Assembly: GCF_002196705.1 (NCBI RefSeq)
Contig: NZ_NADJ01000037.1
Coordinates: 62,001 to 126,000, forward strand
Reading direction: 5' to 3'
Source: Desulfosporosinus sp. FKB
GTDB taxonomy: Bacteria > Bacillota > Desulfitobacteriia > Desulfitobacteriales > Desulfitobacteriaceae
DNA length: 64,000 bases
Position 1 is the first letter of the stretch; each line of letters opens with the position of its first letter. Below are positions 6,763-44,654 of this stretch, one piece after another. The translations under genes were made by a program, and so were the position numbers. The notes beneath the pieces are model-generated. The model did no database searches. It was not told the DNA's origin and saw only the letters and a program-made list of their open reading frames with translations.

Positions 6763-6962
6763 CATTTCACCAATTAAATTCCCCGCAAAGCCGTTTAGAT
6801 TATTTGGTTTTTACCCCGCTCTCGCAGGTGGGCATTTTCACCCTACTTTTCAGCCTTCCTCTAAAAGCAGAGGCCTGACCTAATCAGTAAGTTTCTCAAA
6901 TTCCCGAAATTTCAAATAGGATCAAAACCAAATCAGATCTTCGCACATCGCAGGTTTGTTGG
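6735..6962 (-). ncRNA. ssrS: Structured small RNA, 6S (SsrS)-like
   Basis: A free-standing transcription unit without a reading frame. A consensus promoter (TTGCTT, 17 bases, TATAAT) predicts a start at about 6962 and a strong terminator ends it. The ends pair as a long interrupted stem (GATTTGGTTTT near 6935 with AAAACCAAAT near 6810; GCGAAG with CTTTGC outside it), the middle is a large unpaired bubble, and a short hairpin (CCTCT/AGAGG) caps it. A rod with a central bubble is the 6S RNA plan. The family call is from shape, not from a model search. Confidence 0.5.
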
Positions 6963-7675: not shown

Positions 7676-9583
7676 TCACGTATAAAATATTCCGGTTTCC
7701 CTAACGTCATATCCGCCAAGAGCAAGGACAGCTTCTTGGAAATCCTTACTTTGAACAACCGAGATCATTGCTTGCATACGCGGTTCTTCAAGATATTCAA
7801 TGGGTATCGCCAGATCATAGCGTTCTTCCCCAATAAAAATGTAATCCAAGCCCAGAGCTTCTGCTGCACTTTGAATGCCCAGCCCCACATCCGCTGATCC
7901 CGAAGCGACCGCTACGGCAACACCTAAGTGCGTAAATTCCTCCCGGTCATACCCTATAATTTGTTCTTTATTAAGACCTTGCCTCTGAAGCAGGTAATCC
8001 AATAATACTCGAGTTCCAGATCCACCCTGACGATTTATAAATCGAATCCCTGGCCGGACTAAATCTTCCAAGGTTCTTATATTAAGAGGATTTCCCTTGG
8101 GTACAATAAGAACCTGCGTTCTGTATACCAAATTCATCAAGGCAACATCTCTTTCCGGCAAGAAGCGCTGTAGATATGTGCGGTTATAGTCCCCAGTTTC
8201 CGGATCGAGTAAATGAATTCCTGCAAAATGTGCTTCCCTTTTGCGTAAAGCCAAAATTCCGGTAAGACTGCCAACGTGCGCTGAGGCTAATCCTCCATTT
8301 CCTCCCCTGGCCTTCATATGACTGCTCAAAACGTCAAGAGTAAGATCATGGGATCCAATGCAAACTAAGGTTTCCTCTAACTCGGTGACAGGCCGCAGTA
8401 ACTCAACGGGCACAGTCTCTCCTTCATGAAACCCTTCCTGCAAGCGGGGAACCCGAAGTATCCCATCTGCTCTAACCAGACTCATGGTCACGCCTGCCCC
8501 CCTGCTCAAAGGAGCAGCAACCCAACGATCGCCGACCTTTCCTACTTTAACCCTGACAAATTCTTCACTTCCTAAGGAGGAGAAGACTTTCTTGCTGATA
8601 ACTGCATCGAGGGTCGATGGTGGTATTTTGCTTAATCCCTGCAAATTCTTGACCCAAGGCTCTAAGAACAAATGGGCAGTCAGAAAAGCAGATACCGGGT
8701 AACCAGGGATGCCAATCGTTGGCTTTCCCTGAACTTCCCCAAGAGCAACCGGTTTACCAGGCTTGATTGCAACACCATGAAGATATAGCTCACCATGTTT
8801 TTCAATTAACTGGGCCGTATAGTCATCGCGTCCCTGTGAGGATCCTGCGATGATGACCAGAATATCTTGCGATTCGGCCATCTGCAGCATAGCTTCTTCC
8901 AATAAGTATGGCTGATCCGGCGTTATCGGCCATACTGTAGCTTCTCCACCCCATTCTTGAACTAAAGAAGCAAGCACACGGGAATTTGAATCCACAATAT
9001 CACCTATCTGTAGTTCTGCCTCAGGTGGACGTATTTCGTCTCCGGTCGGTAAAATCCCCACTCGCGGCTTACGGCGAACTTCGACTTGCAAAACCCCACC
9101 GGCTAATAATGCCCCTTGATCTTGAGGACGAATGAGATGATGTATTGGGAGAAGCACTTCTCCTTCTACAAGATCTTCGCCAACCGGCCGAACATGGTTC
9201 CAGGGAACGACTGGAGCCTGCAGCAAGATGCCGCGTTCACCTACTTGCAATACATCTTCCAGCATAACCACCGCGTCCATCCCTTGAGGTATAGGGTCTC
9301 CTGTGTCGACTTGAACCGCCTGGACCCCAAGTTCTAACCAACGCGGCTCGCGCTCCGAAATCCCAAAGGTATCTTTAGCCCTAAGAGCATAGCCATCCAT
9401 CGCCGAAGCAGCAAAATGAGGCGAACTTCTCTTAGCGCGAACAATAGTACCTGTAACTCGATGTAAAGATGAACAACTATCCACAATTTCATTTTTAGGC
9501 ACACAGCATTCCGCAAGCTTTTCCATCATTAAAGACAGCCCTTCTTGCCAAGCCATACTTTTCAGATATATTCTGCGTTCCAC
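7676..9583 (-). CDS. moeA: MoeA fused to a PBP-like sensor domain
   Basis: A 635-residue fusion. Residues 1-405 are MoeA (metal insertion into adenylylated molybdopterin): HFAASAMDGYALRA near 55, DTGDPIPQGMDAVVM near 93, ILPTGDEI near 177, GIPGYPVSAF near 290. Residues about 415-635 are a periplasmic-binding-protein-like domain (PF12727 type) with GSHD, FAGIHLLDPETGDYN and GSADVGLGI. The same domain forms the C-terminal part of the regulator at 17634. The glycine loop usual in MoeA (GGVSVG-like) reads AGSSQGRDD. Such fusions are known in anaerobes; oxyanion binding by the added domain is inferred. It is last in the operon, 35 bases after the other moeA. Confidence 0.9.
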   Translation of the reverse strand: MERRIYLKSMAWQEGLSLMMEKLAECCVPKNEIVDSCSSLHRVTGTIVRAKRSSPHFAASAMDGYALRAKDTFGISEREPRWLELGVQAVQVDTGDPIPQGMDAVVMLEDVLQVGERGILLQAPVVPWNHVRPVGEDLVEGEVLLPIHHLIRPQDQGALLAGGVLQVEVRRKPRVGILPTGDEIRPPEAELQIGDIVDSNSRVLASLVQEWGGEATVWPITPDQPYLLEEAMLQMAESQDILVIIAGSSQGRDDYTAQLIEKHGELYLHGVAIKPGKPVALGEVQGKPTIGIPGYPVSAFLTAHLFLEPWVKNLQGLSKIPPSTLDAVISKKVFSSLGSEEFVRVKVGKVGDRWVAAPLSRGAGVTMSLVRADGILRVPRLQEGFHEGETVPVELLRPVTELEETLVCIGSHDLTLDVLSSHMKARGGNGGLASAHVGSLTGILALRKREAHFAGIHLLDPETGDYNRTYLQRFLPERDVALMNLVYRTQVLIVPKGNPLNIRTLEDLVRPGIRFINRQGGSGTRVLLDYLLQRQGLNKEQIIGYDREEFTHLGVAVAVASGSADVGLGIQSAAEALGLDYIFIGEERYDLAIPIEYLEEPRMQAMISVVQSKDFQEAVLALGGYDVRETGIFYT

Positions 9584-9618: not shown

Positions 9619-10860
9619 TTAACGGATAAGCCGAAAATAGACATCATTTCCAGCCTCTATACCCTCCGTATCCAAGCCGATGTGTACTAGAGCATCAGCC
9701 AGAACCATCGTCCGTATTAAACCGGATTTTCCACGAATCGGTTCAACTACCCACTTTTCTCCGTTTGAACTAAGTTGGACTCGAATAAATTCCTCCCGGC
9801 CACTCCCAGAGTATAAATTCTGGGTTATTGTTCCCTTAGGCAAGGGCTCGGTTTTAGGATGTAAAACAGAGGCATCTAACCACGGACGGACAATTGTATC
9901 AAATACGACCATCGCAGAGGCTGGATGACCAGGGAGCCCAAAAATCAGTTTCTGATCCACGATTCCGCCAATAGTAGGCTTACCTGGTCGTAATGCTAAG
10001 CCGTGAAAAAGCAACCCTGGCTCTCCAAGTTCGTCAATAAGCTGAGCAGAAAGATCTCTCGAACCAACGGAACTCCCGCCGGAGAGCAGAACTATATCGT
10101 TTTCCTGTAACATCGTAGTTAATATTGTGCGCATTTTTTCTAAGTCGTCCTTGACAATACCATAGTGGTGAGCTTCGGCACCACAAGCAATGGCTTGCCC
10201 AAGTAATGTATAGCCATTGATATCTCTTGACTGGCCAGGCTGCGGTATTTGATCCGGCGGAATAATTTCATCACCGGTAGAAAGAATCCCAACTCGGAAT
10301 CGTGGCAAAACTGGGACGGTCACTAACCCTTGAGAAGCCAGAAGCCCCATTTCTTGTGCTCTAATTCGAGTAAATTCCGGAAGTATAACCTCTCCTTTAC
10401 TCAGATCCTCTCCAATATCAATAAGATTTTCCCCAGGTGCAGCAGACTTAGTAACACCATAAAGTCCATCCCCAAAGTTTTCGAGATGCTCAATCATTAC
10501 AACAGCATCTGCACCTTCCGGAAGCATTCCTCCTGTGGGGATTAAAATGCCAATCCCCTTCTCTAATTGTTCCGCAGGAGCCTTGCCCATGAGCACTTCC
10601 CCGCGGCATTGGATTAAGGCCGGCATACTCTCACTGGCTCCAAACGTATCCACAGCCCGAACAGCCATTCCATCCACCGTTGATTTGCGAAAATGGGGCA
10701 GGTCACAGGTCGCCGGTATATCCCGGGCTACAATACGTCCTAATGAATCTTCCAAAGAAACCTTTTCAACGTGTTGATATAAGGAGAGAACATAGGGTTT
10801 TAAGGTTTCGATCGCCTCTGTTAATGTTTTGACTTTAAAAAGTTCACTGCTGCTTCCCAT
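9619..10860 (-). CDS. moeA: Molybdopterin molybdenumtransferase MoeA
   Basis: A 413-residue canonical MoeA with all domains: HFRKSTVDGMAVRA near 57, PTGGMLPEGADAVVMIEH near 106, GILSTGDEIIPP near 190, LLSGGSSVGSRD near 256 and GLPGHPASAM near 306. It inserts molybdate or tungstate into the pterin dithiolene. Having two different MoeA proteins beside a tungsten enzyme and a tungstate importer parallels archaea that use MoeA paralogues for different metals; which one handles tungsten here is unknown. The start follows GGAGAAGGAG and lies 27 bases after the moeB-like gene. Confidence 0.93.
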   Translation of the reverse strand: MGSSSELFKVKTLTEAIETLKPYVLSLYQHVEKVSLEDSLGRIVARDIPATCDLPHFRKSTVDGMAVRAVDTFGASESMPALIQCRGEVLMGKAPAEQLEKGIGILIPTGGMLPEGADAVVMIEHLENFGDGLYGVTKSAAPGENLIDIGEDLSKGEVILPEFTRIRAQEMGLLASQGLVTVPVLPRFRVGILSTGDEIIPPDQIPQPGQSRDINGYTLLGQAIACGAEAHHYGIVKDDLEKMRTILTTMLQENDIVLLSGGSSVGSRDLSAQLIDELGEPGLLFHGLALRPGKPTIGGIVDQKLIFGLPGHPASAMVVFDTIVRPWLDASVLHPKTEPLPKGTITQNLYSGSGREEFIRVQLSSNGEKWVVEPIRGKSGLIRTMVLADALVHIGLDTEGIEAGNDVYFRLIR

Positions 10861-10887: not shown

Positions 10888-11574
10888 TTACTTAATCTTA
10901 AACCTTTCAAATTCCATGGTTAGCAAATCAACTTGCAGCCAAGCATTCCTCAAAGAGGGCTGGCGCCCAATAAGTATTTTTACAGTTTCAGCAACACTTA
11001 AGCAAGCCAAAACTCCAGGTGTAAACGCTGGATTACCCCAAGTCTTCTCAACACCATTACCTCCGCGTCCGAATAACCACTGAGCACTAAAATCCCCCGG
11101 CAAACTCACTCCCAGCTGACCATACCAACCCGCGATACTGGCATATACCAAAGGCAAATTCATTTGGTGACAGACCCTCTCCAACATAACACGAGTTTCT
11201 CTGGAATCAAGGGCATCACACACGAGATTGACTCCCTGTAAATGTTCGGGACCGGTATCTTCTCTAAACCAGCCTTTAATAGCATCAACATGGATCTCAG
11301 AGTTTACAATTTTTAATCGTTCCTGTGCTGCTTCTACTTTCCACTGTCCGATATTAAGCTCTGTAGCCATGATTTGGCGGTTAAGGTTACTTATTTCGAA
11401 ACGATCACCGTCAAAAAGGATTAATTTGCCAACCCCAATACGGGCAAGTTGTTCGGCAATATGCCCCCCTAAACCACCGCAGCCAACAATTGCAACTGCG
11501 GAATTCGCTAATTTTTGCTGATCCTCATCGGTTAATGTTTTCTTATTACGACGATACCGGCCTTCGAAAACCAT
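10888..11574 (-). CDS. moeB: MoeB/ThiF-family adenylyltransferase
   Basis: A 228-residue E1-like enzyme that adenylates the C-terminal glycine of a MoaD/ThiS-type carrier. It shows the nucleotide loop VGCGGLGGHIA (about 32), FDGDRFEISNLNRQ (about 56, with the catalytic Arg), and CDALDSRETR (about 120). The two CxxC zinc pairs of E. coli MoeB are missing, so this is the shorter HesA/ThiF-like type. Its start codon comes directly after the moaD stop (TAA then ATG), and the GGAGG for it lies inside the last moaD codons, so the two are translationally coupled. Confidence 0.9.
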   Translation of the reverse strand: MVFEGRYRRNKKTLTDEDQQKLANSAVAIVGCGGLGGHIAEQLARIGVGKLILFDGDRFEISNLNRQIMATELNIGQWKVEAAQERLKIVNSEIHVDAIKGWFREDTGPEHLQGVNLVCDALDSRETRVMLERVCHQMNLPLVYASIAGWYGQLGVSLPGDFSAQWLFGRGGNGVEKTWGNPAFTPGVLACLSVAETVKILIGRQPSLRNAWLQVDLLTMEFERFKIK

Positions 11575-13746: not shown

Positions 13747-13836
13747 AATCTTCCTCCTCATGATTATCTTATTTCAGCACAAAAATTTTATAATAGTTGA
13801 ACAAATTAACTAAGACGAATATGACAAATATATAAA

Positions 13837-13851
13837 GCAATTCTAATGCCA
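13837..13851 (-). promoter_or_regulatory. Sigma-54 (-24/-12) promoter of AOR
   Basis: Minus-strand TGGCATTAGAATTGC matches the RpoN consensus TGGCAC-N5-TTGC with exact GG-N10-GC spacing. The predicted start near 13825 leaves a leader of about 80 bases before the AOR start. The alcohol dehydrogenase has the same kind of element. Confidence 0.75.
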
Positions 13852-13915
13852 ATATAAAGTGTTATAATAATTTTTTGACTTGCTTGAATATTTATCAATC
13901 CAAACCAAAATACAT

Positions 13916-13960
13916 CCAATTAAAACAAATTAAATCAAATTAGATTAAATTCAAAACAAC
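13916..13960. other. Phased A/T-tract DNA between AOR promoter and upstream sites
   Basis: AAATTA-type tracts recur with a 10-base period (about 13925, 13935, 13945), expected to bend DNA. A second AT repeat (AATTAAACCA at 14111 and 14131, spaced 20) lies farther upstream. Position between enhancer-like motifs and the sigma-54 promoter suggests an architectural role. Confidence 0.45.
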
Positions 13961-14009: not shown

Positions 14010-14051
14010 GTGCTCCAAATTAGAACAGTCCAGAATTCAAACTGCTCCAAA
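14010..14051. promoter_or_regulatory. Paired upstream activator motifs of AOR
   Basis: Two copies of [GC]TGCTCCAAA at 14010-14019 and 14042-14051, spaced 32 bases, 160-200 bases upstream of the -24 box. The same motif pair with 33-base spacing precedes the alcohol dehydrogenase. This is a typical arrangement for a sigma-54 enhancer-binding protein, whose gene is not in the window. Confidence 0.55.
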
Positions 14052-14150
14052 CTTAAACATTTTTGACCATTAAATCAAAAAGCGAAACAAGATTTAATCA
14101 AAATAATTATAATTAAACCAAATTATATTAAATTAAACCAAACTTAATTA

Positions 14151-14180
14151 TTGACGGCCAAATATATTGGAGGTTATACT
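14151..14180 (+). promoter_or_regulatory. Sigma-A promoter of wtpA
   Basis: -35 TTGACG at 14151-14156, 18-base spacer, -10 TATACT at 14175-14180. A small palindrome (TATCTGATAGATA, 14180-14192) overlaps the start region and could be an operator. Confidence 0.5.
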
Positions 14181-14286: not shown

Positions 14287-15291
14287 ATGAAAAAAAGAAT
14301 AATACCATTATTACTAGTCGCTATCCTTACTGTGCTCACTGGGTGCGGTACAAGTAGCGGAAATAGCAGTTCAGGCGGAACCAGCAGCTCCACTCCTGAT
14401 AAAAAAGTGACATTAAACATTTTAGCGGCAGGAACTTTAACAGTGCCGTTTAAACAAGTTGATGAAGCTTTTCAAAAGAAGTATCCTAACGTAACCGTAC
14501 ATCCTCAATTTGGCGGCAGTGTTAAGATGGTTAAACAAGTTACGGATTTGAAACAGCCGGCTGATCTAGTGGCAGTAGCCGATTATACCGTTATCCCTAA
14601 ATACATGTTTGGCAGCAATGGTCAGCAAAAATATGCCGATTGGTATGTTGGTTTTGCCAGCAATGAAATTACCTTTGTTTATACGAATCAAAGCAAAGGC
14701 CACGATAAAATAACACCGGATAACTGGTATCAAGTGCTTGCTGAAAAAGGTGTGCAAATTGGTCGCTCGAATCCTGACACTGATCCTTCCGGCTATCAAA
14801 CCTTACAAATGTTAAATCTAGCTGAGAAATACTATAAAGCTCCTGACTTAGCCAAGAATATTCTGGCCAATGCTCCGGCAACAAATATCCGCGATACAGA
14901 AACTGAGCTTTTAAGTGCTCTTCAAGCCGGACAGATTGATTATTTAGCAATCTATAAATCTGATGCCTTACAGCATGGATTAAAATACTTACAATTACCA
15001 GCCCAAATTAACCTCAGTGATCCTAAATATGCCGATTCCTACAAAGAAGCCAATGTACAAACAAAGAATGGAAATCTGACCGGCATGCCAATCGTTTACG
15101 CTTTGACCATACCCAATAATGCTGCAAACGCAGATTGGGCGCAGAAATATGCCGCTTTCCTCTTCGGACCTGAAGGGCAGGCAATCTTCCAAAAAGACGG
15201 TTTCGGAATGCTGCCTAAGCCTTATGCCAATGATGTCAGCAAAGTCCCTTCCTCTTTAAGTTCGTTAGTCAGCTCCTGGCCGCAAAAATAG
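14287..15291 (+). CDS. wtpA: Tungstate-binding lipoprotein WtpA
   Basis: A 334-residue ABC solute-binding protein. The signal peptide ends in the lipobox LTGC, then a Ser/Gly linker. Family segments are ILAAGTLTVPF near 45, PADLVAVADYTVIPK near 95, the anion-binding GRSNPDTDPSGYQ near 157 and PIVYALTIPNNAAN near 270. These match the WtpA/ModA branch that binds tungstate or molybdate; AOR next door favours tungstate. ATG 14287 follows GGGAGGAG. It is followed by a hairpin and then wtpB, an arrangement that can make the binding protein more abundant than the permease. Confidence 0.88.
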   Translation: MKKRIIPLLLVAILTVLTGCGTSSGNSSSGGTSSSTPDKKVTLNILAAGTLTVPFKQVDEAFQKKYPNVTVHPQFGGSVKMVKQVTDLKQPADLVAVADYTVIPKYMFGSNGQQKYADWYVGFASNEITFVYTNQSKGHDKITPDNWYQVLAEKGVQIGRSNPDTDPSGYQTLQMLNLAEKYYKAPDLAKNILANAPATNIRDTETELLSALQAGQIDYLAIYKSDALQHGLKYLQLPAQINLSDPKYADSYKEANVQTKNGNLTGMPIVYALTIPNNAANADWAQKYAAFLFGPEGQAIFQKDGFGMLPKPYANDVSKVPSSLSSLVSSWPQK

Positions 15292-15299
15292 TTATAAAA

Positions 15300-15334
15300 A
15301 CACATCAGATGGAGTTTAACTCTATCTGATGTGT
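15300..15334 (+). terminator. Intercistronic hairpin between wtpA and wtpB
   Basis: ACACATCAGAT and its complement with further pairing in the centre (GAGTT/AACTC). It lacks a good T-run, so it may protect the wtpA mRNA 3' end or terminate partially. Confidence 0.7.
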
Positions 15335-15440
15335 TGACGTATTATGGTAATTTCAAATTCGTAGGATAGCATAATATTTTGCATTTACTTATTGGTAATA
15401 ATACAATGTTTTAATAAATGGTCCTAGGAGGAAGTTTCGG

Positions 15441-16235
15441 GTGGGTAACCGTATATTTTTTCTGTTATTTTGGTTAGTTGGCAGTATTATTCTGGCTTTT
15501 ACCCTCATCCCTTTAGTAAATCTTTTTCTTACTCAACCTTTATCATCAATTGTGAATGTTGCCGGGATGCAGGATGTTCGGGCTTCAATTTATTTAAGTA
15601 TGATTACTGCTGTCATAACGGCTTTATTAGCCGCTATATTGGGGACTCCCTTAGCTTATCTGTTAGCAAGACGTTCATTTCCTCACCAGGCAGTTATTGA
15701 AGCGATTGTAGATTTACCTTTAGCGGTACCCCATACGGTGGCCGGTATATCCCTTTTATTCATTTTTGGGAGAAATGGTCCTATTGGCAGAATAGCCCAA
15801 CATTTTGGTTTAAGTTTCTGGGGGAGTTCCTTAGGTATTATTATAGGAATGCTGTTTGTCAGCTCGCCGTACATGATTAATGCTGCTCGGGAAGGTTTTG
15901 AGAGTATTGATATTCGTTTAGAAAAAGCAGCCCGTACTTTAGGAGCTACTCCTAGACAAGTCTTTTTACATGTATCTCTTCCTCTCTCATTACGGAGTAT
16001 CCTGACAGGGATTGTACTTACCTATGCTCGTTCCATTGCCGAGTTCGGGGCAGTAATTGTCATGGCTTATTATCCGCAAACCGCACCGGTCAAAATTTAC
16101 GAACTCTTCCTTAGCGGGGGTATAGAACAAGCCGCAGCAGCAGCAGCACTTTTGTTGTTGATCACTCTTTCCACGTTTGTACTTTTCCGATATTTTGCCT
16201 ACAAGCCTAGGCTAAAACAGTATCATAAGAATTAG
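15441..16235 (+). CDS. wtpB: Tungstate ABC transporter permease WtpB
   Basis: A 264-residue permease with six hydrophobic helices. The EAA-type loop reads EKAARTLGATPRQVFLHVSLP (about 171-191), the contact site for the ATPase. ARSIAEFGAVIVMAYYP near 202 is typical of ModB/WtpB/CysT proteins. GTG at 15441 follows AGGAGG. The ATPase gene is about 200 bases downstream, separated by a structured insertion. Confidence 0.9.
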   Translation: MGNRIFFLLFWLVGSIILAFTLIPLVNLFLTQPLSSIVNVAGMQDVRASIYLSMITAVITALLAAILGTPLAYLLARRSFPHQAVIEAIVDLPLAVPHTVAGISLLFIFGRNGPIGRIAQHFGLSFWGSSLGIIIGMLFVSSPYMINAAREGFESIDIRLEKAARTLGATPRQVFLHVSLPLSLRSILTGIVLTYARSIAEFGAVIVMAYYPQTAPVKIYELFLSGGIEQAAAAAALLLLITLSTFVLFRYFAYKPRLKQYHKN

Positions 16236-16376
16236 TGAACTCGTTCAGCTAATATCCTGTGGACAGTTTCGCTGAAAGCGCCTAGCCCATAACAGATGCT
16301 ATCGCGCTGCAGGATGGACTCTACCTCCACCGAAGCAAGGTATGGGAACCACTCCCACTTGAAGTGGGAGTTTTGC
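16236..16376 (+). ncRNA. Structured remnant, lone IS605/ISC-type guide-RNA-like element
   Basis: About 140 bases, starting at the wtpB stop, contain several short inverted repeats and end with the perfect palindrome ACTCCCACTT-G-AAGTGGGAGT (16351-16371). That end resembles the subterminal hairpin of the tnpB element at 4754. There is no tnpB or iscB gene beside it. I read it as a solitary omega-RNA/HEARO-like remnant inserted in the operon; family assignment needs a covariance model. Confidence 0.45.
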
Positions 16377-16438
16377 GATTGAATAAAAATAAGAGAATCG
16401 ATTTTATGCCATTAAAAATGAAAGGTACTGTTGAAGTT

Positions 16439-17569
16439 ATGACTATCCAGGTTGAAAATCTTACGCTGCAAATTGGAAGTTTTAGACTTAAAGATATTAG
16501 CTTGAATGTACCGACAGGCAAAGTAGCAGTTATCCTCGGCCCAAGCGGTTCTGGAAAATCAATATTATTGGATGCTCTTGCCGGATTTAGCCGGCCACAG
16601 AGCGGACGAATTCTCCTCGACAGTCAAGACATAACTGCGCTTCCCCCGGAAGCAAGAAAAATCGGTTTTATGTTCCAAGATAATGCCCTTTTTCCTAACC
16701 TTACTGTGCGCGAAAACATTCTATTTTCACTTCGGTTTCGCAATAGAAGAACGCCGGCTGACGATAAAGAATCCAAGATAGACGTTGGACAAATTATGAG
16801 GATGCTTCACATCGATCATCTAACCGATCGTGCTATTGGTGGATTAAGCGGAGGAGAAAAGCAACGTGTGGCTTTGGGTAGGGCCCTGGTTAGAAACCCT
16901 CGGATTTTTTTATTCGATGAACCCATGTCAGCTCTTGATGCTCGGGCTAAAGAAGAGCTGCAAATAGAATTGAGTGAACTATTACATAAATTATCTCTCA
17001 CAGCAATTTATGTTACCCATGACCAAGCGGAAGCCTCAGCCTTGGGAGACCTTATCTGTATTATGGAAAATGGGCAATTAGCTCAGACAGGAACTCATGA
17101 CGAGATATTTCGCCATCCTAACTCACCTTTTGTTGCCAAATTTGTCGGCATGGAAAATTTATTTGATGGTAAGGTTATTGAACTACACCCGGAGAGCGAC
17201 AGACGCTCACTGGTTAGTGTTCAAGTTATAGGGACCGACGGTTCATCCACCGCCTTTACAATCATTACGAATCAAGAGGTTAAACTTGGAGAACAAGTAT
17301 TGATTGGGATACGTCCGGAAGATTTAATTATTCAACCCAGATCCCCTAAACAACAATTCATAGATAATGGCGATAAAATTTTCGCAACTATAAAGGATAT
17401 CGTACCCTGGGGTATCGTCTATAGGCTTCAAATGGAAGGACCGTTTTTGATAACAGCTTATCAGAACCATCAAAACATCGAGAAACTCAATTTAACTGAA
17501 CAACAGTATGTGCAGGTGACGTTCCCATCAACTTCGCTCCATCTTATCAAAAAAGGGCTAAAGGATTAA
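16439..17569 (+). CDS. wtpC: Tungstate ABC transporter ATPase WtpC
   Basis: A 376-residue ATPase. Walker A GPSGSGKS near 34, Q-loop FMFQDNALFP near 77, signature LSGGEKQRV near 133, Walker B FLFDEPMSALD near 154 and the switch His (VTHDQAE). Residues after 235 form the accessory TOBE-like domain. The frame is open back to a GTG at 16364 inside the structured insertion and to ATG 16406, but ATG 16439 gives the normal family start; it lacks a strong ribosome site. It energises tungstate import with WtpA and WtpB. Confidence 0.9.
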   Translation: MTIQVENLTLQIGSFRLKDISLNVPTGKVAVILGPSGSGKSILLDALAGFSRPQSGRILLDSQDITALPPEARKIGFMFQDNALFPNLTVRENILFSLRFRNRRTPADDKESKIDVGQIMRMLHIDHLTDRAIGGLSGGEKQRVALGRALVRNPRIFLFDEPMSALDARAKEELQIELSELLHKLSLTAIYVTHDQAEASALGDLICIMENGQLAQTGTHDEIFRHPNSPFVAKFVGMENLFDGKVIELHPESDRRSLVSVQVIGTDGSSTAFTIITNQEVKLGEQVLIGIRPEDLIIQPRSPKQQFIDNGDKIFATIKDIVPWGIVYRLQMEGPFLITAYQNHQNIEKLNLTEQQYVQVTFPSTSLHLIKKGLKD

Positions 17570-17633: not shown

Positions 17634-18548
17634 TTATGTATTTAATAGAATTTTCCCTGTCATTGAAGTATCGTATCCGGTCTGCTGGTTAACGGCCTGG
17701 ATAAATCCTGGAGATCCTAAAGTATTAAGCAACTGATTCCAAATAGATGTTTTTGCTGTCTTACCCAAACAGACTAGATCATATCTTTCTTGGAATAGCG
17801 GGATAAAATCAAGGCCAAGTCGTTTTGCGGCGGCTTTTACTCCAACGCCCACATCGGCTTGTCCGTTAGCGATAAGACAGGCAAGGGCCGAGTGGGTAGT
17901 TTCTTCGTGAGCGTAACCCTGGATTCGATCAGGTGAGATTTTTTTCGCTTGTAAGAATGAGTCAATTCGCAAACGAGTACCGGATCCTTTCTGGCGGTTA
18001 ACAAAACGAACCCCTACTTGAGTCAGATCGTCCCATGTCTCTAGATTGAGAGGATTTCCAGAAGCCACGATGAAACCTTGCTGACGTTGAACTAAGTTTA
18101 CAATGCAAACAGATTCATTGGGGATAATATGACGGACGTAAGAAATATTATAATCTCGTAAATCGTTATCCCACAGATGTATCCCTGTAATATCTGCTTC
18201 CCCGTTGTAAAGTGCAATTAGCCCGTCCATACTTCCTCTAAAAGAAAGTGACGTTTCAATGGGAATCGCATTATGCTTAAGAAATTCAAAGAGTAGTTCT
18301 ACGACCGGGTCATGACTTCCAATAAAACAAAGACTTGGTTGTGTCAGATTCTCCGATGGTATAGTCTTAGAAGTTTTATAGTTACTCATTGTTCCGTGTA
18401 AATAATGGTCAAGTACAGCAGGATCTACCCGAAGTTGTCGGCCAATGCGCTGAGCAGGAATCTCTCCCCGTTTTATCAGCTCATACATGGTGTACGTCGA
18501 GATTTTTAGTATTTTCGCTGCTTCAACCGGAGTCAGTGTTTGACTCAA
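17634..18548 (-). CDS. One-component regulator: excisionase-type HTH plus PBP-like sensor
   Basis: About 304 residues. An N-terminal MerR/excisionase-family HTH (LTPVEAAKILKISTYTMYEL, RGEIPAQRIGRQLRVD) is followed by a PF12727-type substrate-binding domain (GSHDPVVELL, ITGIHLWDNDLRDYN, NGQADVGVGVKAA). The C-terminal domain is clearly related to the tail of the MoeA fusion at 7676. The likely role is control of tungstate or molybdate genes by sensing the oxyanion in the cytoplasm; this is inferred from context. TTG 18548 after AGAGGGTG is preferred over ATG 18572. Confidence 0.85.
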   Translation of the reverse strand: MSQTLTPVEAAKILKISTYTMYELIKRGEIPAQRIGRQLRVDPAVLDHYLHGTMSNYKTSKTIPSENLTQPSLCFIGSHDPVVELLFEFLKHNAIPIETSLSFRGSMDGLIALYNGEADITGIHLWDNDLRDYNISYVRHIIPNESVCIVNLVQRQQGFIVASGNPLNLETWDDLTQVGVRFVNRQKGSGTRLRIDSFLQAKKISPDRIQGYAHEETTHSALACLIANGQADVGVGVKAAAKRLGLDFIPLFQERYDLVCLGKTAKTSIWNQLLNTLGSPGFIQAVNQQTGYDTSMTGKILLNT

Positions 18549-18786
18549 TGTAGTCACCCTCTGTATAATCATAATTCGTGAACTTAATAGGGTTGTCTAA
18601 AAAGCAAATCAATACGGCAAATTAAACTGTAAGGGTTTAGCTTGAACCTGAATAATGAAGACACTGTCCCAATATTTATGATATATTAAATGATCTTGAA
18701 AATCAAATACTTCTTTTTTTGCTCTAACATAATATAGTCTCTCAGAATGATTAAAGCCGTAGTTTATGTTTAATACCCAAAGGTGG

Positions 18787-20763
18787 CTAAAGAGAATTAT
18801 ACACAATTTCAGCAATGTCCTGACATTCGATCACCTTTTCGGAATTCTGCGCTTCTTTAGTTAGTGTTAATAAACACAAGGAACAGGCGCTGGCAAGAAG
18901 ATCTGAATTGGTCCTAAGCACTTTTTTCATAAGGAGGCTGCTAATACCCTCCTTCTCTTTGTCTTTTATCCATATTCGGCCTCCCCCGGCTCCGCAGCAA
19001 AATGCCATGTTTCGATTACTTTTTTTCATCTCTATCAGTTCCAGTCCGGGAATTGAAGTTAAAACAGCCCTAGGTGCTTCGTAAATCGAGTTATACCTTC
19101 CCAGATAACATGGGTCATGAAAGGTGACTTTACATTGATTGGCCTTTTGTGGTTTAATTTTCCCTGATTTGATAAGATCTGCAATTAGCTCTGAATGATG
19201 CATAACATTATACTGTCCTCCGAGCTCTGAATATTCGTTTTTAAGGGTATGAAAACAATGTGGGCAATGAGTAACGATCGTTTTAAACTCATATCGATTT
19301 AAGTTTTGGATATTTTCAAGGGCCAGCTGTCGAAAAAGTTTTTCATTTCCTAATCGCCTTACCGTACTTCCACAACATTCTTCTTCCTTACCTAGGATGG
19401 CATAATTTACCCCTGCCTGTTCTAAGATTTTAATCATTGCCTGGGAAACCTTTAAATTGCGGGAGTCAAATGTCCCATAACATCCTACCCAATACAAAAT
19501 ATCTGTTTGCTTTACCTTACTAAGAAGAGGTGCCGATGTTCCTCTGCCTAAATATTCCTTTTCATCGAAACAGAAGCTTAATCCCCAGGGGTTACCTTTT
19601 AGAGCAATATTATCGAATTTCGTATAAACTTCAAGAGGATAGCCAGTTTCCATTGTAGCTAGATTGCGTCTCAGATCTACAATTCTTTTAATATGCTCCA
19701 TATTGAGCGGGCATTTAACTTCACAAAGTCCACATGTTGTACAAGACCATAACGTCTCTTTGGAAATTATGGTATCAATTAAGGGAATCTCGAAAGTCTC
19801 AGCTATATTTTTCGAGTTAGCGTGTCTTTTAAAATCCTGAATCATCCCTCTTGGCGTAAGGGGATCTCCACTTGCATAAGCCGGACATCCCTTTTGACAC
19901 CTCAGGCAGGAAACACAAGCGTCAAATTCAATAAGTTGTTTTTTGCTGAAATCCTTTAGCCGGGCAACTCCAGTGTCATGTTCTTGTTCTGTGATTGGAT
20001 CAGCCGTGGTCAAAGTTCCAAGAGAGGATGAAGGTTTGAGGATAATATTTAGTGAAGATGCAATCATATGAAATAGTTTTGAGTATGGAATATACGCAAT
20101 AAGTCCTATACCTATAATCATATGAAAATACCATAAGCCGGTATAAATTGAGTGGGCCGCTTTAACTGATAATCCGGATTTCTTGGCTAAAAATGAGAGA
20201 AATAGCCCGACAGGTGTCCATACTGCCCAACTGTCACCGATAACATATATCCTTAAACCCTCTAAAATAAAGCCCGTTAAAAGAATTGCAAAAACCAGAA
20301 AAAGCAAAAAGCCATCGTCAAACGTATAATCAGAATGGTCACGTTTGGTGATATAACGTTTGTAGGCTGCCATAAGTGTTCCTATCGTCGCCAGCAGTCC
20401 GAATATATCCATTAAAAAGCTAATAACCAGATACTTTATGCCATAAAATATTGGTATTTTAAAATCCACTTGAAGTCCTATCATTACTGTTCCTATCAGT
20501 AAAATCAAAAAGCCATAAAACATACCCAGGTGCATAAGGCGGCGAAAAGTTCCCTTGAAAATTTGATTATTATGCATAGATAAGTCCGAAATGAACGCTT
20601 TATATCTATAGCCTAAGTTATCAAATGGCCTTGACCGTCCTTGTCCCCAACGTCTTAGCTTTTTAACAGTGCCAATTAAAAAAATCAGGAAGGATACTAA
20701 GGCCCAAAGATACATTATACCCTCCCCGTTTGTGTTCCAAAACAAGGGTCTTGTTGCTCCCAT
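18787..20763 (-). CDS. HdrD-like membrane Fe-S oxidoreductase
   Basis: A 658-residue protein. Residues 1-250 hold about six membrane helices of the nitrate-reductase-gamma/HdrE type with His residues able to bind haem b. Two [4Fe-4S] ferredoxin motifs follow (CVSCLRCQKGCP and CTTCGLCEVKCP, about 285-360). The C-terminal part has two CCG domains (ECCGSTVRR and FCCGAGGGR), as in HdrD and GlcF. It probably passes electrons between a cytoplasmic partner and the quinone pool. Location between tungsten regulator and alcohol dehydrogenase suggests, without proof, a link to AOR-derived electrons. GGAGG precedes the ATG. Confidence 0.88.
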   Translation of the reverse strand: MGATRPLFWNTNGEGIMYLWALVSFLIFLIGTVKKLRRWGQGRSRPFDNLGYRYKAFISDLSMHNNQIFKGTFRRLMHLGMFYGFLILLIGTVMIGLQVDFKIPIFYGIKYLVISFLMDIFGLLATIGTLMAAYKRYITKRDHSDYTFDDGFLLFLVFAILLTGFILEGLRIYVIGDSWAVWTPVGLFLSFLAKKSGLSVKAAHSIYTGLWYFHMIIGIGLIAYIPYSKLFHMIASSLNIILKPSSSLGTLTTADPITEQEHDTGVARLKDFSKKQLIEFDACVSCLRCQKGCPAYASGDPLTPRGMIQDFKRHANSKNIAETFEIPLIDTIISKETLWSCTTCGLCEVKCPLNMEHIKRIVDLRRNLATMETGYPLEVYTKFDNIALKGNPWGLSFCFDEKEYLGRGTSAPLLSKVKQTDILYWVGCYGTFDSRNLKVSQAMIKILEQAGVNYAILGKEEECCGSTVRRLGNEKLFRQLALENIQNLNRYEFKTIVTHCPHCFHTLKNEYSELGGQYNVMHHSELIADLIKSGKIKPQKANQCKVTFHDPCYLGRYNSIYEAPRAVLTSIPGLELIEMKKSNRNMAFCCGAGGGRIWIKDKEKEGISSLLMKKVLRTNSDLLASACSLCLLTLTKEAQNSEKVIECQDIAEIVYNSL

Positions 20764-21139: not shown

Positions 21140-22303
21140 TTACATTGCGTTTTTATAAATTTGAATCACTTGTTCCAGGGTTGCTGTCCGCGGATTGGTC
21201 AATTGACATGCATCCATTTTTGCATTACCTGCCATGAGGGCAAAGTCTTCTTCTTTGACTCCAAGTACAGATAATCCTGTGGGAATTCCAACATCTTGAG
21301 AAAGTGTTGCAATTGCGCTGAAACATTTTTCAGCAGCTTCTCTGGCCGAAAGTCCTGTAATATTTTCTCCCATGGCTTCAGCAATCTCTCCAAAACGTTC
21401 GAGATTACCTATCATGTTAAAGCGTGATACATGCGGCAAAAGGATGGCGTTACAAACACCATGAGGTAAGTTATAAAAACCACCTAATTGATGAGCCATA
21501 GCATGAACATAACCTAAACTGGCATTATTGAAAGCCATACCGGCCAATAATTGAGCATAGGCCATTTGTTCACGTGCTTGAAAATCATCGCCATTAGCTA
21601 CGGCTCGACGCAAATATTTACTAATTAATTTAAAAGCCATCAGAGCTGCCGAATCCGTTACAGGCGTGGCTATTGTGGAAACATAGGCTTCCACAGCATG
21701 GGTAAGGGCATCCATTCCGGTAGATGCTGTCAGACTAGGCGGTTGTTTCATCATCAATAGGGGATCATTAATGGAAACATTAGGGGTTACATGCCAATCA
21801 ACAATAGCCATTTTGATATGTCGTGCTAGATCCGTGATAATGCAGAATCTTGTCATTTCTGCAGCAGTTCCAGCGGTAGTATTGATAGCTATCATTGGAG
21901 CCATCGGCAAAGGAGATTTATCCACACCTTCATAGTCATTAATTCTTCCACCATTTCCAGCAACAAGTCCGATCCCTTTGGCACAATCGTGCGAAGATCC
22001 TCCGCCTACGGATACAATAAGATTACAGCCCTCTTTTGTATAGAGGTCAAACCCATCATGAACATTTTTGTCGGTTGGATTCGGTTCAGCCCCTCCATAA
22101 ATAACAACATCGAGACCTTCTTTTTTGATGATATCAGCAATATCTTGAGCCATCCCGATTTTTTCAAGGAAGGCATCAGTTACCAAAAGTACTTTTTTTC
22201 CACCCAATAATTTAGCTTGTTTTCCAGTCTCTTGAGCTGCTCCAGCTCCCATGAGGTTCACGGTTGGCATATAATAGCCATAAACTTGATTAATAATTGC
22301 CAT
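21140..22303 (-). CDS. adh: Iron-containing alcohol dehydrogenase
   Basis: A 387-residue group III (Fe-type) alcohol dehydrogenase. It has the nucleotide loop GGGSSHDCAKG (near 96), TTAGTAAEMTRF (near 138) and the metal ligands in the DALTHAVEAY and HAMAHQLGG...LPHG motifs (near 193-280). It interconverts alcohols and aldehydes with NAD(P)H. The frame extends upstream to 22396, but ATG 22303 after GGAGG gives the family length. A sigma-54 promoter lies 88 bases upstream; the same control as AOR suggests sequential alcohol to aldehyde to acid oxidation. Confidence 0.93.
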   Translation of the reverse strand: MAIINQVYGYYMPTVNLMGAGAAQETGKQAKLLGGKKVLLVTDAFLEKIGMAQDIADIIKKEGLDVVIYGGAEPNPTDKNVHDGFDLYTKEGCNLIVSVGGGSSHDCAKGIGLVAGNGGRINDYEGVDKSPLPMAPMIAINTTAGTAAEMTRFCIITDLARHIKMAIVDWHVTPNVSINDPLLMMKQPPSLTASTGMDALTHAVEAYVSTIATPVTDSAALMAFKLISKYLRRAVANGDDFQAREQMAYAQLLAGMAFNNASLGYVHAMAHQLGGFYNLPHGVCNAILLPHVSRFNMIGNLERFGEIAEAMGENITGLSAREAAEKCFSAIATLSQDVGIPTGLSVLGVKEEDFALMAGNAKMDACQLTNPRTATLEQVIQIYKNAM

Positions 22304-22390: not shown

Positions 22391-22407
22391 AAGCAAAATT
22401 CATGCCA
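22391..22407 (-). promoter_or_regulatory. Sigma-54 (-24/-12) promoter of alcohol dehydrogenase
   Basis: Minus-strand TGGCATGAATTTTGCTT has exact GG-N10-GC spacing and TGGCA...TTGCT cores. The predicted start near 22381 leaves a leader of about 78 bases. Confidence 0.8.
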
Positions 22408-22534
22408 AAAAGTAAGAAAATTTTAGTAATTAATTTCACTTAGAGAGAAATCAGTGATAAGTTAATATTGAATTAAATGAATGATGTATAAATTCACACT
22501 TTATAGAAATATTAGTTTCGTTAATGTGTTAGTA

Positions 22535-22575
22535 TGGAGCACTTTGTTCAAGACAGGCGCATTATTTTGGAACAC
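22535..22575. promoter_or_regulatory. Paired upstream activator motifs of alcohol dehydrogenase
   Basis: TGGAGCAC at 22535-22542 and TGGAACAC at 22568-22575, each followed by TTTGT, spaced 33 bases and 130-170 bases upstream of the -24 box. Each resembles a GARCA-N3-TGTTC half-palindrome. They match the AOR motif pair. Confidence 0.55.
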
Positions 22576-39315: not shown

Positions 39316-39590
39316 GCCCAAAATAAAAAGCCCTAAGCTGCTTTAATCAGCTTAGGGCGAAATAGCATATCCGTGTTACCACCTAAATTCAGAGGTTACT
39401 CTGCACTCTGTCGGCACAAAATGCCGCTTCCGTTATAACGGTCGGAACTCCGGTAAAGCTTACTGGATAAATATCATTCGGCTAAACAGCTCAGAAATGG
39501 CTTCCCCGTTTTCTTCATGAAGATTTTCACCAACCATCTTCTCTCTGCGCATATTAAAACAAGTACTATTTTTCGTCACAGCTTTGTATA
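39316..39590 (-). promoter_or_regulatory. T-box leader riboswitch
   Basis: The minus strand carries the T-box core AGGTGGTAACACGG (39371-39384) followed by a strong terminator (stem arms 39330-39340 and 39348-39358, then TTTTTATTTT). Upstream are stem I features: AGTA and AGAGAGAAGATGG, with GGTGAAAATC as the distal loop. Uncharged tRNA binding favours the antiterminator. The specifier triplet is not certain; alanine codons (GCT, GCC) lie in the expected area (about 39500). Confidence 0.9.
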
Positions 39591-43721: not shown

Positions 43722-44510
43722 TTCACCTCTTTTCTCTTTACTTCAATTTCAATAAAAGTTTAATTATAATAAAATACTTTTAATGATTTTAAACTATTAT
43801 ACAACTGAAATTGAAAGTAAAGAAATATGTTCGTAATTGTATTATTTTATAGTTATAAATAGTTTTAATTTTAATTATAATTTAAAAAATGGCAATCAAT
43901 ATTCCATACAATGGGTTAATATCTAATTTTAGTAAAAATACGGTTCGAAATAGATTGTAATCTTGATAATCTTGCATATAACAGAAAATATTTCATAAGT
44001 TAAATTATAATACAAAGCAATTATTTGGATTGATTAAGATTGGATACCCACAAAAGATAACAATAGTTATTTAATAATTAAATTGACTATCAAAGTTAAA
44101 AACTTAAAATATTTGACAATCTGGCGATTCATTGCCTCATATCAAATTTGCTATTCTTCAAGAAATTTTACAAATTTACTTTCTGAGAATATTCGTCCAT
44201 TGTTTTCGTTTCTCTTCCATTTCAAAGAAATATAGATATCTATTTCGGTATTCTCCATATCACCATCACCTTGATATTCTTGTTTGGGTACAGCAAAGAA
44301 ACCTCGATACAATCGTACCGGGGATCAGGCATCAAAAAAATGATTGAGAATTAAGCAAATGAAAGAACAATGCAGATTTAAGACGCATAACTAATTATGA
44401 TAAAAGTACCCCTGAAAAATAAGCTTGTTAGGAGAATTTTCACTGTATTTGCTCCATTATGGTGCTATATATTCTGGAATTAAAGGATTAATATTATTAA
44501 CAGTTGAATA
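43722..44510. other. Long AT-rich intergenic region
   Basis: About 790 bases without a gene I can support. Very AT-rich up to 44110. It contains the promoter regions of the divergent APC and kup genes and no clear repeat. Confidence 0.5.
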
Positions 44511-44513
44511 AAC

Positions 44514-44646
44514 AATCGCTGAATTCTCAGGAAGCGGGGGAACCATAAACGGGCTTATTGATTAGCCCAATGGGGTGAATCACAGAATGTGACGGGTTAT
44601 TTCTTTCGACCCGAACCCGGCAGCTAACCTCGTAGGCGTTGAAAGG
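44514..44646 (+). promoter_or_regulatory. Cyclic di-AMP riboswitch (ydaO-yuaA)
   Basis: The leader has the conserved ydaO elements in order: CAGGAAGCGGGGGAACCA, AATGGGGTGAATC, GGGTTATTTCTTTCGACCC, GAACCCGGCAGCTAACCTCG and TAGGCG. Binding of c-di-AMP switches off downstream expression. Control of a Kup-type potassium transporter is the classic use. Confidence 0.95.
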
Positions 44647-44654
44647 GGGATGAA

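Follow-up and report, generated by a model that had tools for sequence, protein, structure and literature searches.

A predicted sigma-54 regulon of a tungsten aldehyde oxidoreductase and two alcohol dehydrogenases in Desulfosporosinus sp. FKB

Results

Genes of the locus

We analysed a stretch of 64,000 nucleotides from Desulfosporosinus sp. FKB, referred to here as the window, whose features are collected in Table 1. It encodes an aldehyde:ferredoxin oxidoreductase of the tungsten family (AOR), with its nearest named relatives in Desulfosporosinus MAGs, and downstream of it three probable members of the same operon; the order AOR-thiF-moeA-moeA is also found in relatives. An iron-containing alcohol dehydrogenase (ADH) is encoded in the same window, and its start was taken as the ATG preceded by GGAGGA within a listed ORF that extends to 22396. 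A second ADH (ADH2), 94% identical to the first, is located at G000:C7:76277-77452. The divergent neighbour of AOR, wtpA, has a sigma-A-like promoter (14151-14180) and no sigma-54 box. Beyond wtpC, a protein with HTH_17 and PBP-like domains (17634-18572) is possibly a molybdate- or tungstate-sensing regulator of tungsten genes. Rfam models also matched a T-box leader (39350-39588, minus strand), a c-di-AMP riboswitch (44507-44653, plus strand) and a 6S RNA (6776-6959, minus strand) in the window.

Table 1. Positions of the genes, promoters and enhancer sites (window coordinates unless a contig is given).
Feature	Position	Strand	Details
MoeA and PBP-like fusion, probable AOR-operon member	7676..9583	-	NCBIfam NF011068, 718 bits; order kept in relatives
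MoeA-family gene, probable AOR-operon member	9619..10860	-	order kept in relatives
ThiF/MoeB-family gene, probable AOR-operon member, downstream	10888..11574	-	Pfam ThiF 2e-53; order kept in relatives
AOR, 603 aa	11950..13761	-	Pfam AFOR_N 2.4e-81, AFOR_C 4e-147
Sigma-54 (-24/-12) promoter of AOR	13836..13852	-	TTGGCATTAGAATTGCT; GG-N10-GC, perfect clostridial consensus
Enhancer site AOR-1	14010..14028	-	CTGTTCTAATTTGGAGCAC; 176 bp upstream of -24 box; 22.7 bits
Enhancer site AOR-2	14042..14060	-	ATGTTTAAGTTTGGAGCAG; 208 bp upstream; 32 bp from AOR-1; 15.9 bits
wtpA, tungstate-binding protein, divergent from AOR	14288..15291	+	TIGR03730, above its cut-off
wtpB	15441-16235		after wtpA
wtpC	16364-17569		after wtpB
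ADH	21140..22303	-	Pfam Fe-ADH, ADH_Fe_C
Sigma-54 (-24/-12) promoter of ADH	22392..22408	-	TTGGCATGAATTTTGCT; GG-N10-GC, perfect consensus
Enhancer site ADH-1	22524..22542	+	ATGTGTTAGTATGGAGCAC; 134 bp upstream of -24 box; 14.9 bits
Enhancer site ADH-2	22557..22575	+	GCGCATTATTTTGGAACAC; 167 bp upstream; 33 bp from ADH-1; 16.0 bits
Candidate activator gene	G000:C7:92029-93898		listed ORF L041:3989-5899, likely start ATG L041:4030; GAF-PAS-AAA+-Fis HTH

Sigma-54 boxes and paired palindromes upstream of AOR and ADH

A first-pass annotation of this DNA had placed GG-N10-GC promoters at 13837-13851 and 22391-22407; both are present, but each set of coordinates was off by one base. The boxes lie 91 (AOR) and 102 bases (ADH) upstream of the coding regions and fit the pattern TTGGCAYN5TTGCW, with GG and GC at -24/-12, which belongs to the consensus family applied to Clostridiales by Nie et al. 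2019 (PMC6615313). They are the sole matches in the window at 0-1 mismatch, and both are without mismatch, although two matches against 1.8 expected is not rare in itself. Perfect matches are another matter: the genome holds 31 and the reversed control 0, which makes a perfect box informative. Each of the 20 other AOR orthologues whose upstream sequence was compared (at least 72% identity) has a box in the equivalent position, and a box stands in front of each of the 28 ADH regions examined. One match to the sigma-54 gene itself was found in the genome (C30:104261, 197.6 bits).

Two GTGYTCCA/TGGARCAC motifs had also been noted per promoter, 32 and 33 bases apart and 130-200 bases upstream. We reproduced the spacing (32 bp at AOR, 33 bp at ADH) and the placement (176/208 and 134/167 bases from the respective -24 boxes). 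Three of the four copies match TGGARCAC exactly (14010-14017 on the minus strand, 22535-22542 and 22568-22575 on the plus strand), whereas the fourth, CTGCTCCA at 14042-14049, differs by one base. The motif is real, yet it is not a free 8-mer: it is one half of a 17-bp palindrome, TGT-N11-ACA, and the full operator, present twice per promoter, reads TGTTCCA-N3-TGGAACA, with one half weak in each ADH site. Counts of the bare 8-mer do not reach significance (5 against 2.56 expected, with 15 of 100 shuffles reaching as many), and in the genome the bare pair pattern does not exceed chance (4 matches against 5 for the reversed control). The case therefore rests on position and on the full sites.

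The palindrome was found de novo in sequence upstream of the orthologues of AOR, ADH and the activator, after this genome and its two closest relatives had been excluded. This search returned nTGTTCCAnnnTGGAACAn, with about 100 sites in 54 regions of other genomes; the likelihood gain was 513, compared with 70-95 when the sequence was shuffled. The compared regions share descent and so are not independent. The same palindrome was recovered without imposed symmetry. Its TGT and ACA are separated by 11 bases, within the 10-12 bp given for AorR sites by Nie et al. 2019. Across relatives, 42 of 44 pairs of neighbouring sites are spaced 31-33 bp, about three helical turns, and in the alignment of AOR upstream regions the sites and the box are kept amid diverged surroundings. 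An AT-rich array with a 10-base period (13902-13959) separates the enhancer sites from the AOR promoter, and a similar TTTTAATTTG array occurs in relatives. Curvature from phased A-tracts in the stretch between sites and promoter was considered and rejected, since a test for helical phasing gave no significant 10-11 bp periodicity.

Specificity of the paired sites in the genome

A 19-bp matrix trained only on other genomes was applied to 30 perfect sigma-54 promoters of this genome, over 400 bp of upstream sequence each. Two strong sites were found at three of them, AOR (22.7/15.9 bits), ADH2 (17.3/14.7 bits) and ADH (16.0/14.9 bits), and the next best promoter reached 11.3/1.3 bits; a coarse look around the 31st perfect sigma-54 site gave no site of at least 11 bits. 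The scan for a motif pair plus a -24/-12 box, proposed as a check on the first reading, thus returned only AOR, ADH and ADH2 among the 30 promoters, and the regulon drawn from AOR and ADH has to be widened to ADH2 (C7:76277-77452). A pattern scan of the genome for an exact half-site pair spaced 32-33 bp gave four matches, at these three promoters and upstream of the activator gene described below. Among relatives, a site pair is missing from 15 AOR paralogues of 37-69% identity and from one ADH paralogue; the best single site among them scores 11.6 bits.

Other half-site pairs were set aside. The one at C26:61975 (spacing within 36-39) lies inside an ORF, and those on C4 and C5 (spacing within 36-39) are copies of one repeated sequence. 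At C30:224955-225007 two TGTTCCACGTGGAACA palindromes stand 37 bp apart with a third about 520 bp further on, a parS-like arrangement. Two isolated sites with high scores, C30:168881 and C2:84562, also fall inside ORFs.

A candidate activator outside the window

The genome encodes about 31 full enhancer-binding proteins (EBPs), and no EBP gene was found within the window; a 658-aa ORF at 18787-20763, suspected by its size, is an iron-sulfur CCG-domain protein. The only activator gene found to carry paired sites upstream is the candidate on C7, which answers the suggestion that an EBP gene with the same motif be sought. Its product has an AAA+ domain with the GAFTGA loop, a Fis-type HTH, and the sensor domains GAF (1.6e-7) and PAS (1.2e-4, just under the curated cut-off). 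The paired sites lie immediately upstream of the gene, where a -24/-12 box is absent, an arrangement that suggests that the activator may control its own expression.

The linkage in relatives points to the same gene. In 18 of them (one of another genus) the orthologue of this activator is the divergent neighbour of AOR, 280-440 bp away, and the sites sit in the shared intergenic region. In other relatives, and in this genome, the neighbours of the orthologue are a moeA-like gene and a molybdenum aldehyde oxidoreductase operon; both copies occur together in some genomes. Orthologues from the two contexts have nearly identical recognition helices (GKIAPAAKxLGIGRNTLYRK), and the two groups interleave in the tree, indicating one activator family, of which the C7 copy is the sole member found in this genome. 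The activator gene is adjacent neither to AOR nor to the window ADH here, and thus lacks the co-localisation with these targets that is usual for EBP genes. At this locus the wtpABC tungstate transporter genes (14288-17569) occupy the place beside AOR that the activator has in relatives; with wtpA there, AOR has enhancer sites but not a local activator. The first reading, an EBP-type regulon with one activator coded outside the window, is thereby well supported: the layout is conserved in about 20 related genomes, and the C7 gene combines paired sites of its own with orthologues divergent from AOR.

The molybdenum operon beside the activator

The neighbouring operon, of the xanthine-oxidase family, has a conserved sigma-54 promoter (C7:90459-90475), and no strong enhancer site was found within 400 bp of it (3.2 bits). 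The nearest pair is the one before the activator gene, about 1.4 kb away and past the intervening moeA-like gene; in the relative L135 the corresponding distance to the nearest strong site is 7.8 kb. About 60 bp upstream of the molybdenum -24 box there is a different block, ATGGTAYCGYATTC (G000:C7:90459-90550; L041:2460-2551), which is largely kept in nine related loci, has no other perfect copy in the genome and may be where another activator binds. With no enhancer pair nearby and another block at the promoter, this operon is at most a possible member of the regulon. We consider it rather unlikely that one activator coordinates the tungsten (AOR) and molybdenum systems with the ADHs, the distant pair driving the molybdenum promoter and AOR being served in trans.

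Discussion

From the boxes, the sites with their spacing and conservation, and the activator-AOR linkage in relatives, we propose that AOR and ADH very probably belong to one small sigma-54 regulon, in which the predicted activator encoded at C7:92029-93898 would bind the paired palindromes. Enhancer binding, looping and ATP-driven promoter opening are established sigma-54 biology. In this case sigma-54 RNA polymerase would sit at the -24/-12 boxes, and the C7 activator would bind two 17-bp palindromes three helical turns apart, 130-280 bp upstream, loop to the polymerase and open the promoter by ATP hydrolysis. The trigger would be a signal sensed by the GAF/PAS part, most likely an alcohol or aldehyde. 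The output here would be AOR, probably with its thiF-moeA-moeA cofactor genes, together with the window ADH and ADH2.

The direction of the pathway is a separate matter. AOR and ADH are reversible enzymes, and Desulfosporosinus is a sulfate-reducing genus in which several members couple alcohol oxidation to sulfate reduction. For such an organism it is plausible that the regulon switches on alcohol-to-acid oxidation. The same regulon might instead serve the synthesis of alcohols from acids, AOR and ADH then running backwards, a role proposed for Clostridium. Nie et al. 2019 (PMC6615313) put aor and adhA under 'Alcohol synthesis', and mutants in the AdhR study (PMC7017808) were impaired in butanol and ethanol formation. 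Given the habit of the genus, we think synthesis a possible but unlikely role, and prefer oxidation.

With the boxes and sites taken as real, the activator might also be another EBP, such as the AcoR-like proteins encoded at C31:300873 and C35:384804. These are the next most similar activators to the C7 protein (35 and 34% identity), one of them is divergent to an aldehyde dehydrogenase gene, and the AOR-side activator of a Clostridium MAG (L152), which has the same palindrome, resembles them more than it does the C7 protein. However, no site of this type occurs near either gene, and each has its own neighbouring candidate target, an acetoin-dehydrogenase-type operon or the aldehyde dehydrogenase. 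It is the C7 family, not these activators, that flanks AOR in relatives with sites between, and paired upstream sites were found only at the C7 gene, making the alternative very unlikely. That AOR and ADH use ordinary sigma-A promoters, the boxes being relics or chance, is scarcely credible, since a weak sigma-A-like match upstream of AOR (13898-13870) stands against fewer such matches than in shuffles in both regions, none at ADH, and -24/-12 boxes retained in every orthologue examined.

In Clostridium, AorR and AdhR are already known to control aor and ADH genes through sigma-54 (PMC6615313, PMC7017808). In Nie et al. 2019 (PMC6615313) AorR is listed for Clostridium and Geosporobacter alone, its target being aor-moaD, and activator genes are co-localised with their target operons for most EBPs, though not all. 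The AorR regulon resembles ours in its sigma-54 consensus, its TGT/ACA sites 10-12 bp apart and its aor target, and differs in that one type of site is common to AOR and two ADHs here. AdhR of Clostridium beijerinckii, whose control of adhA1 and adhA2 was shown by mutants, reporters and gel shifts (PMC7017808), is likened to the C7 activator by domain order (GAF-PAS-AAA+-HTH) and shares sigma-54 dependence and several sites upstream of ADH genes; it has three sites per promoter rather than two, and its targets are adhA1 and adhA2 without an AOR. Activators of the AcoR/DhaR type have the same domain order, the DhaR model spanning nearly the whole C7 protein at 321 bits, below its cut-off of 551, but act on other targets (acetoin and dihydroxyacetone metabolism). 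The AOR-side activator of the Clostridium MAG shares only about 33% identity with the C7 protein and resembles other activators of this genome more closely, making orthology of the C7 protein to AorR doubtful. Because the C7 gene is not co-localised with AOR or the window ADH, we term its product AorR/AdhR-like rather than AorR.

What is new is the predicted Desulfosporosinus regulon with its candidate activator and the predicted joint control of AOR and two ADHs, read from sequence comparison. A testable activator, operator and target set can now be named for alcohol and aldehyde metabolism in Desulfosporosinus, with the prediction that the tungsten AOR and its partner ADHs are co-controlled there. 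In the Clostridium MAG the palindrome occurs three times between AOR and an activator gene of another lineage, which suggests that activators of two lineages, the C7 family and that of the MAG, may use the same operator. An operator common to two lineages would help to predict regulons of this kind in further anaerobes. At L152:5374-9127 in the Clostridium MAG and at L142:7879-11806 in a spirochaete MAG, an activator of another lineage stands before AOR with TGTTCCA-N3-TGGAACA-like palindromes between them.
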